This document shows, piece after piece, positions 13,005 through 19,863 of a DNA stretch of 47,962 bases; the stretch's first letter is position 1, and each line of letters starts with the position of its first letter. This DNA comes from an uncultured Rhodopila sp. (GTDB lineage Bacteria; Pseudomonadota; Alphaproteobacteria; Acetobacterales; Acetobacteraceae). The position numbers and the translations under genes were made by a program. The DNA is taken from positions 1 to 47,962 of the forward strand of contig CAIZFE010000049.1 in NCBI GenBank assembly GCA_903932145.1. Reading direction: 5' to 3'. The notes under the pieces are model-generated. The model worked only from the letters and a program-made list of their open reading frames with translations, was not told the origin of the DNA and did not search any database.

Positions 13005-13841
13005 TCAGGATATGGCGCCGGCGGCCAATTCCACAACCTCCGCCGTGATCTCCTCCTGACGGATCTGCCGCTCCAGTGCCTGCAGTTCCGACCGCATGTT
13101 TCCCAAATTGGACTTCGCGGATAACATCGCTGCCACGCGGGCTTCATTTTCCGCGGCGAACGCGGTCAGGGCCGCTTCGCAGAGTTCGGCAAACACATAT
13201 TCCTCGGCCAGTCGATCCAGCAGCACTGCCGGCGGCAATGTTATCAGCGGTGCCTGACCGGATGTCGAAACGGCAAAGCGATGAAAATCGAACGGCACCA
13301 GCGATCGTCGTTCGGGCACAACTCCGCTGCCGGCAGACCACGTCGGCACGATGATATCGACCTGACGGCCGGACTGATCCGATAGCCAGCCATACAGAGC
13401 GTCCGCGATCCGGCCCGCCAGGGCGGCGACAAGGTTCGCGTGCGGCACCATGGCGGTCCGCCACGCCACCTGAATGCCTCGTTCGGAGGCCAACGCCGCG
13501 CCGCGCGTGCCGATCAGGAAGACGGTCTGTTCGCCGGCCTTTTGGGCCGCGGCCTCCAAAATGCGGTCGCTGAATGCGCCGGCAAAGCCTTGTTCCGCAC
13601 AGAACACGATCACCGCCGACCGGTGAATCCTCGGTTCGGCGGGTCGTTGATCGCCGGGCGCCAGGGCCAGGGCCTGCCCGATGGCGCGAGCAATAACGGC
13701 CGCGTGCGCGCGCAGCCCGGGCAATAATCCATGCGCCTGTTGCACACGGCTGGCGGAGATTCCACGCATGGCGGTCACCACCGCCTCCAATTGCTGCAAA
13801 CTCTCAATGCGCCGGGTCGTCTGCGCCAGCCGCTCAGTCAT
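13005..13841 (-). CDS. atpG: N-type ATPase gamma subunit
   Basis: The central rotor shaft of the F1 head (278 aa). The N-terminal helix (LAQTTRRIESLQQLEAVVTAMRGIS region) and the C-terminal helix (AMLSAKSNLGNMRSELQALER region, then RQEEITAEVVELAAGA) correspond to the two long coiled-coil helices of gamma. The sequence between is quite divergent from standard gamma subunits, as is usual for N-ATPases. The start at 13841 overlaps the atpA stop as ATGA. It is the last gene of the operon; a small hairpin lies shortly after it. Confidence 0.9.
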   Translation of the reverse strand: MTERLAQTTRRIESLQQLEAVVTAMRGISASRVQQAHGLLPGLRAHAAVIARAIGQALALAPGDQRPAEPRIHRSAVIVFCAEQGFAGAFSDRILEAAAQKAGEQTVFLIGTRGAALASERGIQVAWRTAMVPHANLVAALAGRIADALYGWLSDQSGRQVDIIVPTWSAGSGVVPERRSLVPFDFHRFAVSTSGQAPLITLPPAVLLDRLAEEYVFAELCEAALTAFAAENEARVAAMLSAKSNLGNMRSELQALERQIRQEEITAEVVELAAGAIS

Positions 13842-15364
13842 GGTGGCGGCTCTTCGGCGTGCGCCGTGTACTGGGCCGTCAGGGCGCGCAGCGCGCCGGA
13901 TAACGCCGCATGCTGGTCCGCATCGAGCGTGCCGGCCGTTTGGATCATGCGCACCGCCGCACCGGCATTCTGATCGAGCCATGCCGGCAATGCTTCGCGA
14001 AGCGAGGCGATGCGATCGGGCGCGATGGCGTCAAACATCCCGTCCCGCAACGCCAGCGCCAGCGCCACTTCATCTGCCAGGCGCAACGGTGCGAATTGGG
14101 GCTGGGAGAGCAGCGCCCGCAGCAACGCACCGCGCGCCAACCGGGCTTTGACCCGGGCGTCCGGCGCCCCGCCGAAGCGAGAGAACATTTCCAGTTCGAG
14201 GAACTGTGCGTAGTCGAGCCGCATGGTTCCCGACATCTCTCGGAGCGCCGGGGCCTGGGTCTTGCCGCCGACGCGGCTGACGCTGGTGCCGATGTCGATG
14301 GCCGGTTTCTGACCCTCCTGAAACAGCCGCGTGCTCAGAACGAGTTGGCCGTCGGTGATCGAGATCAGATTTGTCGGGATATAGGCGCTCAGATTGCCGG
14401 CGTCGGTCTCGGCGATCGGCAACGCGCTCAGGGAGCCGCTACCTCTTTCTTTCGACAGTTTCGCGGCGCGCTCCAGCAGACGTGCGTGGAGATAGAAGAC
14501 GTCGCCCGGGAAAGCTTCGCGGCCGGGCGGTTGTCGGGTCAGCAGCGCGATTTCCCGGTGCGTCGCTGCATGTTTACTCAGGTCATCGATCACCACCAGC
14601 GCGTGTTGGCCGAGATCGCGAAAATACTCCGCCATGGTCATGCCGGCGAACGGAGCGATCCACTGCAGGCCCGGGGAGCTGGTCGGAGCGGCGACAACGA
14701 AGATGCAGCGTTCGGGATTGCCGTGATCGCGAATGGCGTCGATGACCCTGGCCACGCTGGAGGATTCCTGTCCGATGGCGATATAGACGCAAATCAGATC
14801 CGATGTCTTTTGGTTGATGATGGTATCGACCGCGATCGATGTCTTGCCCGTGCTGCGATCACCGATGATCAATTCCCGCTGGCCGCGGCCAAGGGCGAAC
14901 AGCGCATCGATCGTCAGAATGCCGGTCTGTATTGGTTCGGTCACCAAATCTCGCTCGATGATCGCGGGCGCGGCAGCCTCAATGGGATTGCTTGCCTCAG
15001 CGTCTATCGCTGCACCTCCGTCCAGGGGACGCCCCAGCGGGTCCACCACCCGGCCGAGGAGACCGGAACCGACCGAGGTGCGGATTACCTCGCCGGTGCC
15101 GCGCACCAAATCGCCGGCCTCGATCGAGTCAGCGTCATCCAGGACAACACAACCGATCAGATCCCGATCCAGGGTGTGCACGAAGCCCAACTGGCCGCGC
15201 GCGAAATGCAGGACTTCGTCAAGCCGGGCGGACGGCAGGCCGGAGATCATGGCGATGCCGTCGCCGATGGTATGGACGCGGCCGAATTCCTCGATGGCAG
15301 GACCGATGGCCGCCGAGGAGATCAGGCTTTCCGCGCGTTCAAGCCATGACGATTGTTTTGTCAT
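13838..15364 (-). CDS. atpA: N-type ATPase alpha subunit
   Basis: The non-catalytic nucleotide-binding subunit of the F1 hexamer (508 aa). The Walker A motif is GDRSTGKT (residues 168-175), with Ser in place of the Gln usual in GDRQTGKT. The stretch ICVYIAIGQ and the late SVSRVGGKTQ segment, which holds the arginine finger acting on the beta-subunit site, are both present. The start overlaps the end of the b-subunit gene by 26 bases and the stop overlaps atpG. The product is expected to work only with the other subunits of this operon. Confidence 0.95.
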   Translation of the reverse strand: MTKQSSWLERAESLISSAAIGPAIEEFGRVHTIGDGIAMISGLPSARLDEVLHFARGQLGFVHTLDRDLIGCVVLDDADSIEAGDLVRGTGEVIRTSVGSGLLGRVVDPLGRPLDGGAAIDAEASNPIEAAAPAIIERDLVTEPIQTGILTIDALFALGRGQRELIIGDRSTGKTSIAVDTIINQKTSDLICVYIAIGQESSSVARVIDAIRDHGNPERCIFVVAAPTSSPGLQWIAPFAGMTMAEYFRDLGQHALVVIDDLSKHAATHREIALLTRQPPGREAFPGDVFYLHARLLERAAKLSKERGSGSLSALPIAETDAGNLSAYIPTNLISITDGQLVLSTRLFQEGQKPAIDIGTSVSRVGGKTQAPALREMSGTMRLDYAQFLELEMFSRFGGAPDARVKARLARGALLRALLSQPQFAPLRLADEVALALALRDGMFDAIAPDRIASLREALPAWLDQNAGAAVRMIQTAGTLDADQHAALSGALRALTAQYTAHAEEPPP

Positions 15365-19387: not shown

Positions 19388-19863
19388 AGCGCTTCAGCAA
19401 TCGTATCCGGCGTTCGCGCCAATGCCCTCACCAGATCCGCTCGGCTGACAATGCCGATCAGTTCCCCGTCCCGTAGGATCGGCAAGCGTTTGATGCGATG
19501 GTGGACAAGTAACTCGGCCAATTCGGGAACCGTGGCGTCGGCGGATGCGGTGATGGCCGGTGTTACCATCAGATGGCGCGCGAGTTGGTTCTCCGCGCTG
19601 ATGCAATCCAGGAAAGACGGCGCGACCTCGGAGCCTTCTGCCAACAGATTCAGCCACCAGGCCCGTTTCGTTGGGTTTTCTTTGCCAACCGGCTGCAGGA
19701 GATCGCCCTCACTCAGCATGCCGAGGATGTGTCCCTGATCGTCACAGACAGGGACAGCACTGATCCCGTTATCGCTCAGCAGTCTGGCAATTTCGGCCAC
19801 TGACGCGTCGGGTCGCACGGTTCTGACACGCGTCGTCATGATATCGGCAGCGGTTAGCAACAT
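19384..19863 (-). CDS. CBS-domain protein leading the N-ATPase operon
   Basis: A 159-aa cytoplasmic protein made of two CBS motifs: ADIMTTRVRTVRPDASVAEI with GMLSEGDLL, and LARHLMVTPAITASADATV with LIGIVSRADLVRAL. CBS pairs often bind AMP, ADP, ATP or other adenosyl ligands and act as energy sensors. A linker of about 30 residues rich in W, K and L separates the halves. It starts with a strong GAGGAGG box, and its stop overlaps the atpD start by ATGA. This tight coupling suggests, by inference, that it senses nucleotides for the ATPase or regulates it. No partner enzyme domain is fused to it. Confidence 0.9.
   Translation of the reverse strand: MLLTAADIMTTRVRTVRPDASVAEIARLLSDNGISAVPVCDDQGHILGMLSEGDLLQPVGKENPTKRAWWLNLLAEGSEVAPSFLDCISAENQLARHLMVTPAITASADATVPELAELLVHHRIKRLPILRDGELIGIVSRADLVRALARTPDTIAEAL

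Follow-up and report, generated by a model that had tools for sequence, protein, structure and literature searches.

An operon for an N-type rotary ATPase, led by a gene for a protein with two CBS domains, is found on a 47,962-nucleotide (nt) stretch of DNA, here called the window, which is contig C49 of the 6.66-Mb genome of an uncultured Rhodopila species of the Acetobacteraceae. The unit occupies positions 13005-19863 of the minus strand, where a Pfam scan places the CBS-pair gene first, ahead of nine ATPase genes for beta, epsilon, AtpQ, AtpR and subunits a, c, b, alpha and gamma. This CBS-led unit is a real, lineage-specific variant of the known N-ATPase operon, a type that Dibrova is said to have described in 2010 ('alternate F1F0'). 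The strongest functional clue at the locus is a low-oxygen signature predicted upstream of the operon. The favoured explanation, given a probability of about 0.45, is that a complete N-ATPase operon would be expressed from a low-oxygen promoter of the FNR/FixK type and that its CBS protein would bind adenylates and tune the pump.

The ATPase is an N-ATPase as judged from its gene order and from AtpR. ProAD recognises N-ATPases with fused b and delta by the order beta-epsilon-X-X-a-c-(b delta)-alpha-gamma (PMC11738941), and this order is present in a single cluster. The AtpR subunit is recognised by PF12966 (scores in Table 1), and its TIGR03165 match of 26.1 stays below the cut-off of 55.5. 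A missing delta gene combined with a long extension of b is given as the N-ATPase rule in PMC4154653; the Pfam scan detected no separate delta gene in the ATPase unit, and the extended AtpF resembles OSCP towards its C-terminus at 21.0 bits, short of the cut-off of 22.3. A housekeeping F-ATPase coexists in the same genome, with delta, gamma and beta found by family scan on contigs C15 and C95, alpha present there in two pieces, a subunit a on contig C62 assigned to it, and an epsilon-like frame beside these F1 genes that was read by eye. Since the housekeeping atpA is cut by the ends of C15 and C95, the F-type operon is split in the assembly. An earlier description of the window made from its letters, the sequence-only reading, had named nine genes in the order D-C-Q-R-B-E-F-A-G, no delta gene and a coexisting F-ATPase, and it was right on all three.

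Among the NCBIfam 'alternate F1F0' models, epsilon reaches its cut-off (110.8 over 100.1) and beta, alpha, a, b, c and gamma fall below theirs; because epsilon alone does so, the enzyme seems to be a somewhat diverged member of the class. In pairwise comparison, and without a tree containing an F-type outgroup, its beta subunit is 76-91% identical to those of other loci at which a CBS gene comes first, 53-76% identical to those of a class-wide sample and 51% identical to the F-type beta of its own genome. The Burkholderia pseudomallei N1No enzyme (PMC5376962) and the N-ATPases of ProAD (PMC11738941) share with it the gene order, AtpR, the lack of delta, coexistence with an F-ATPase and two carboxylates in subunit c; the window departs from known N-ATPases in having a CBS-pair gene as an additional leader, with an anaerobox-like site upstream of it. 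Other ATPase matches in the genome were set aside: one on C109 at 38.6 kb is just 27-31% identical to alpha and beta, and two further matches to beta, one at 194 kb and one on C86, show 32% and 23% identity.

Loci for comparison came from three samples. In the family sample, AtpR was found in 21 of 150 genomes, own included, at 22 places, of which 21 were read and L072 was without a recognisable atpD; in the class sample it was found in 30 of 385 genomes, own included, with 30 places read, 28 of them with atpD and 27 with upstream room. The third sample was made up of named loci ranked by similarity of subunit a, of which the best 80 of 554 were taken. Removal of 10 identical rows gave 118 loci including the window, and 108 were left once 10 with less than 600 nt upstream of atpD had been put aside. 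The AtpR matches at L185, L186 and L072 are weak, have no recognisable N-type atpD nearby and are probably false or decayed.

The low-oxygen signature consists of the anaerobox, TTGAT-N4-ATCAA, which is a target of FNR and FixK (PMC7888657, PMC5398030) and for which a FixK/FnrN consensus form TTGANCNNGATCAANG has been given (PMC4999443). Such a box, with at most one mismatch and within 300 nt upstream, precedes 48 of 113 first genes of N-ATPase loci, compared with 35 of 1,192 other genes at the same loci (Fisher 9e-34, a value that overstates the independence of the loci because they are related). The spacer control is unaffected by this relatedness: half-sites separated by spacers of 3, 5 and 6 were found at 0, 1 and 1 of the 113, and scrambled half-sites at 0-1. 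The box is present in Nitrobacteraceae (4/6), Geminicoccaceae (1/1), Burkholderiaceae (9/14) and Rhodanobacteraceae (3/3), and was absent from the loci of Sphingomonadales (0/4), Roseomonadaceae (0/2), Lichenihabitantaceae (0/3) and the small-genome families f38, f69, f73 and f90 (0/11). The half-site variants TTGCG-N4-ATCAA and TTGAG-N4-ATCAA, both listed among putative FnrL sites in a table of PMC2908626, also occur among the sites collected here. Searches of a collection of open-access papers did not turn up a description of a low-oxygen promoter pattern for N-ATPase loci.

At the ten loci where a CBS gene comes first, the box is located upstream of that gene in seven cases with at most one mismatch and in nine with at most two, the two-mismatch sites being those of the window and L078. 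Its first base lies 64-100 nt before the CBS start, 71-78 nt at seven of the ten loci and 74 nt in the window, and over the 300 nt that lead up to the CBS/atpD junction a site with one mismatch or none is present in only one of the ten (L062). As the box is found upstream of the CBS gene and not between it and atpD, the predicted low-oxygen transcript would begin with the CBS gene. A FixK-like protein is encoded in the genome (232 bits, below the model cut-off of 300).

The CBS gene occupies first place at 9 of the 108 loci that have 600 nt or more upstream of atpD, namely the window, L062, L065, L075, L076, L077, L078, L080 and L082, and a tenth case, L238 in genome G546, came from a survey of the genus. 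These loci belong to Acetobacteraceae or to the family of the window, except L082, which is assigned only to Proteobacteria, and no CBS gene was in first place at any of the 27 class-sample loci with upstream room outside the family; the CBS gene as a general N-ATPase partner was thus rejected. Within the genus, an N-type subunit a (at least 67% identity) is encoded in 9 of 33 genomes, and in seven of these nine the CBS gene comes first, G571 and G547 being the other two; matching by contig and coordinates equated G562 with L075, G559 with L077, G549 with L076, G560 with L080 and G563 with L078. The named relatives of both the CBS protein and subunit a of the window are from Rhodopila and other Acetobacteraceae. 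When upstream neighbours were sorted by Pfam family, CBS was the commonest with 6 of 92, followed by acetate kinase with four. This tally covered 92 of 106 called neighbours (eight open reading frames of fewer than 100 residues, four more than 500 nt away and two near-copies were dropped), its gene caller overlooked the CBS genes of L062, L077 and L080, and among its six CBS neighbours that of L058 is on the opposite strand.

Within its lineage the CBS gene has been inherited together with the ATPase. In a quick tree of AtpD, AtpB and AtpA, which has some long branches elsewhere, a single clade with a Shimodaira-Hasegawa-like approximate likelihood ratio support of 100 unites six of the nine ATPases from CBS-first loci, and the CBS-first label requires 4 changes, compared with a mean of 8.8 for shuffled labels and with none of 500 shuffles as low. 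Five of the linked CBS proteins (L190-L194) form a supported clade in the CBS tree that branches as their ATPases do; the other four either lack resolution or stand apart. Across the nine loci, pairwise identities of CBS proteins and ATPases correlate with a Mantel r of 0.77 (0 of 9,999 permutations as high). The surroundings mostly differ: both flanks are common to L076 and L080 only, L075 and L077 have one gene in common, placed on opposite sides, as is the single weak match (33-37%) between L065 and L082; downstream sequence is lacking for L065 and L077. The co-varying identities, the matching branching and the persistence of linkage despite changed flanks together indicate that the CBS gene travels with the ATPase in its lineage, and on this comparative evidence it is a real part of the ATPase unit, in one lineage only. 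The earlier proposal that the gene belongs to the unit is therefore borne out, and the expectation that it would adjoin the N-ATPases of related genomes holds for most N-ATPase genomes of the genus and fails for most N-ATPases at large.

The CBS protein itself is predicted to bind adenine nucleotides. The S/T-x-x-D motif is an adenylate-binding mark of CBS pairs, and S-x-x-D is present in the first domain of 9/9 linked CBS proteins and in the second domain of 8/9, with 23/28 and 15/28 for other relatives. An AlphaFold2 model built from 54 sequences (mean predicted local distance difference test score 85.6) matches several CBS-pair structures, including CBSX2 with AMP, AcuB with AMP, ADP, ATP or Ap4A, and hypoxic response protein 1 (HRP1, Rv2626c). 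HRP1 shares the CBS-pair fold and probably the low-oxygen setting, at 23% identity over the fold match; it is not known to lead any ATPase operon. CBSX1/CBSX2 and AcuB, which have been solved with adenylates, likewise share the fold of the window protein, which carries S-x-x-D in both domains; they act with other partners and are not known to be linked to an ATPase operon.

Subunit c has glutamates in both helices and is without part of the sodium motif, and under the ProAD rule these two features together predict coupling to protons. The c17 ring of B. pseudomallei, which is specific for protons, is likewise described as carrying two carboxylates (PMC5376962), and ProAD presumes N-ATPases to be ATP-driven pumps (PMC11738941). 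It is likely, judging from subunit c and the upstream box, that the enzyme is a proton pump switched on at oxygen shortage. In Dinoroseobacter shibae the F0F1 clusters atpHAGDC and atpIBEXF are reported to be repressed via FnrL and DnrD (PMC5398030), which would suit an exchange of enzymes at low oxygen. As proposed, a fall in oxygen would cause a FixK/FNR protein to turn on CBS-atpDCQRBEFAG as one transcript, and the N-ATPase would then hydrolyse ATP and pump protons so that proton-motive force is held while respiration fails. A dimer of the CBS protein would read AMP, ADP and ATP and limit hydrolysis when ATP is scarce. Contact between the CBS protein and F1 is the least certain step of this scheme, and the chance that the CBS protein directly controls the ATPase is placed slightly below even. 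The energy sensor suggested by the sequence-only reading has gained in evidence, as has the competing view, set out below, of a general stress factor.

In addition to the relatedness of the loci behind the Fisher value, several observations weigh against the favoured explanation. The window site has two mismatches to the symmetric 14-mer and so stands outside the 48 loci counted, 65 of the 113 loci are without a site of at most one mismatch, and L077 has no good anaerobox. Among nine relatives from the family or genus that lack the CBS gene, the box has one mismatch at L061 and two at L068 and L069; six have none, and even among near relatives the box is thus not universal. In B. thailandensis, oxygen limitation is reported to induce the chromosome-1 F-ATPase operon and not the second operon, which declines at 37 degrees along with nitrate reductase, nitrous-oxide reductase and universal stress genes (PMC3966863). 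The imperfection of the window site would fit an operon that is constitutive or linked to pH or salt, with the site as a chance match, and proton pumping for acid survival has been proposed for the Burkholderia enzyme (PMC5376962). The distance of the site from the CBS start is however kept at seven of the ten CBS-first loci and the excess of boxes across loci is specific to the spacer, which makes this alternative improbable.

The remaining points concern the CBS protein. Three further members of its family are encoded in the genome, making four in total, and 17 of 28 relatives outside first place are preceded by an anaerobox that has one mismatch or none, often at a comparable distance; the 28 comprise 19 relatives (11 with the box) and nine genes near other N-ATPases (six with the box), after two duplicates had been dropped, so that 11/19 remains when the N-ATPase surroundings are excluded. 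These extra members and boxes imply that the family has jobs apart from any ATPase. Moreover, in genome G014 the linked CBS protein L196 has a free copy, L205, as its sister, and the four changes needed on the ATPase tree mean that the CBS-first arrangement has been gained or lost. The boxes outside first place and the free sister copy would be expected if the CBS protein were a general factor of hypoxia or energy stress that shares only a promoter with the ATPase, a solitary FixK-controlled gene having landed before atpD and lent the ATPase its promoter. Its product would have its role elsewhere, in the manner, for instance, of HRP1 or AcuB, both of which are among the nearest folds of the model. 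CBS-domain proteins also appear in an oxygen-response table for Bradyrhizobium diazoefficiens, where one is called upregulated (PMC6515984). Against this stand the clade of five linked proteins, which branches as its ATPases do, and a linkage that outlasts changes in the flanks, as that of a bystander need not. A general stress factor of this kind is regarded as a serious possibility, at odds somewhat short of even.

At L199-L219, L056, L058, L090, L097, L127 and L098, CBS-pair genes of this family that stand outside first place often carry an anaerobox, in many cases 60-120 nt upstream, and may possibly form a hypoxia regulon of their own. At L058 (genome G017) the N-ATPase locus lies amid three CBS genes, each of which has an anaerobox with at most one mismatch.

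The layout of the unit is summarised in Table 1. The ATPase subunits retain the usual functional motifs, namely P-loops, GERSREG, VRLFGN and, in helix 2 of subunit c, a glutamate. It had been stated that nearly all of the genes are coupled by ATGA overlaps, and 4-nt overlaps are indeed present at five junctions (D/C, C/Q, Q/R, R/B and A/G); of the others, F/A overlaps by 26 nt, E/F overlaps by 1 nt and B/E is separated by a gap of 4 nt. An overlap between the CBS stop and the atpD start, which had also been claimed, requires initiation at the TTG and is not favoured, as the ATG 20 nt past the CBS stop, at 19363, gives a beta N-terminus of the same length as that of the nearest relative, L075, in which beta starts at a GTG 9 nt past the CBS stop. 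Across eight CBS-first loci, the closest possible starts of beta fall anywhere from 23 nt before the CBS stop to 20 nt after it (the script assigned no start in L078, and L238 was outside the comparison). Overlap of CBS and atpD is not conserved across loci; tight coupling of the two genes is nevertheless plausible from their spacing. A scan for sigma-70 promoters and terminators gave nothing useful.

Table 1. Features of the N-ATPase unit and of its upstream region in the window.
Feature	Position	Strand	Remarks
First gene; protein of 159 aa with two CBS domains	19384..19863	-	PF00571, 111.6 bits; S-x-x-D in both domains
atpD, beta	17954..19363	-	from better-supported ATG; TTG alternative at 19387
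atpC, epsilon	17541..17957	-	
atpQ	17254..17544	-	PF09527
atpR, N-ATPase marker	17006..17257	-	PF12966, 39.9 bits, cut-off 26
atpB, subunit a	16329..17009	-	conserved Arg within VRLFGN
atpE, subunit c	16079..16324	-	glutamate in each helix (ALAEG, IETMAIY)
atpF, subunit b, 246 aa	15339..16079	-	long C-terminal extension, weak delta/OSCP match
atpA, alpha	13838..15364	-	
atpG, gamma, last gene	13005..13841	-	
Anaerobox-like site TTGCGCGAGATCAATG	19922..19937	-	departs from the FixK/FnrN consensus at 1 of 12 specified positions and from the symmetric 14-mer at 2
Zeta-type F1-ATPase inhibitor	20013..20360	-	PF07345, 86 bits over 25; only match in the genome
DUF2934 open reading frame, 5' neighbour of zeta	20419..20820	-	pair also in G546 (L238) and G549 (L247)
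Perfect anaerobox TTGAT-N4-ATCAA	20883..20896	-	sole exact 14-mer of the window; 63 nt before the DUF2934 open reading frame

The zeta gene and the anaerobox-like site had both been overlooked by the sequence-only reading. The gap of 149 nt between zeta and the CBS gene holds the predicted box, and zeta is probably outside the CBS-atp transcript. The N-terminal inhibitory region of zeta is conserved and aligns with 7vkv_X and 2ll0 (the sequence of 2ll0 is also in 5dn6); compared with zeta of the Paracoccus denitrificans F1Fo-ATPase, the N-terminal region is alike, the C-terminal part is divergent and the gene adjoins an N-ATPase operon. The exact anaerobox lies in front of DUF2934, 542 nt before the zeta match, and could also serve a divergent gene at 21020. 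A box with at most one mismatch is found within 700 nt of zeta at 6 of 25 loci and at 5 of 9 in the genus, with L238 lacking one, compared with 126 of 4,000 random 700-nt windows; on this enrichment, zeta may be a low-oxygen gene too.

With the genome's single zeta gene directly upstream of the CBS-atp unit, its inhibitory N-terminus conserved and boxes enriched nearby, zeta might be seen as a dedicated brake of the N-ATPase, both being induced by low oxygen and zeta blocking hydrolysis by the N-type F1. In G546, moreover, the DUF2934-zeta pair faces the atpG end of the operon from about 740 nt away. In G549, the pair is about 33 kb from the N-ATPase on the same contig. All three genus genomes in which zeta and an N-ATPase co-occur have the pair, and the zeta stretches L241-L245 (L241 with only 267 nt upstream) and L045 yielded no DUF2934 match. 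Against a dedicated brake, the 17 further zeta stretches read from the family, which span 3-20 kb and include several short contigs of 3-6 kb, showed no N-ATPase genes. Zeta and N-ATPase each occur in 9 of 33 genus genomes and together in three, which is about what chance would give, and the zeta tree does not track N-ATPase presence. A brake dedicated to the N-ATPase is hence unlikely, and the idea of a conserved zeta/N-ATPase module as a general rule was rejected on the same grounds. Zeta is likely to serve the housekeeping F1. The module is kept as a minor lead because zeta stands beside the operon in both the window and G546. In Rhizobiales bacterium dw_265 (L100), atpD is preceded by a same-strand zeta gene some 1.8 kb away, and each of the two has an anaerobox upstream. 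Elsewhere in the window, at 27844-28514, a PIN-domain gene preceded by an Rv0623-like gene (PSK_trans_fac), likely a toxin-antitoxin pair, adjoins gatB.

The cellular functions of N-ATPases are described as largely unexplored in PMC5376962. In a wider form of the proposal, which is rather doubtful, proteobacterial N-ATPases would be low-oxygen pumps brought in through FNR/FixK once respiration stops, supplemented in the present lineage by an adenylate gauge, the CBS protein, on the same transcript and by a co-induced zeta that locks the housekeeping F1 so that it does not waste ATP. The low-oxygen signature is common to N-ATPase loci of alpha-, beta- and gammaproteobacteria, and it provides a testable role for the enzyme and a growth condition under which it may be sought. 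Were the CBS protein to act on the pump in front of which it is encoded, this rotary ATPase would carry a small energy gauge of its own.

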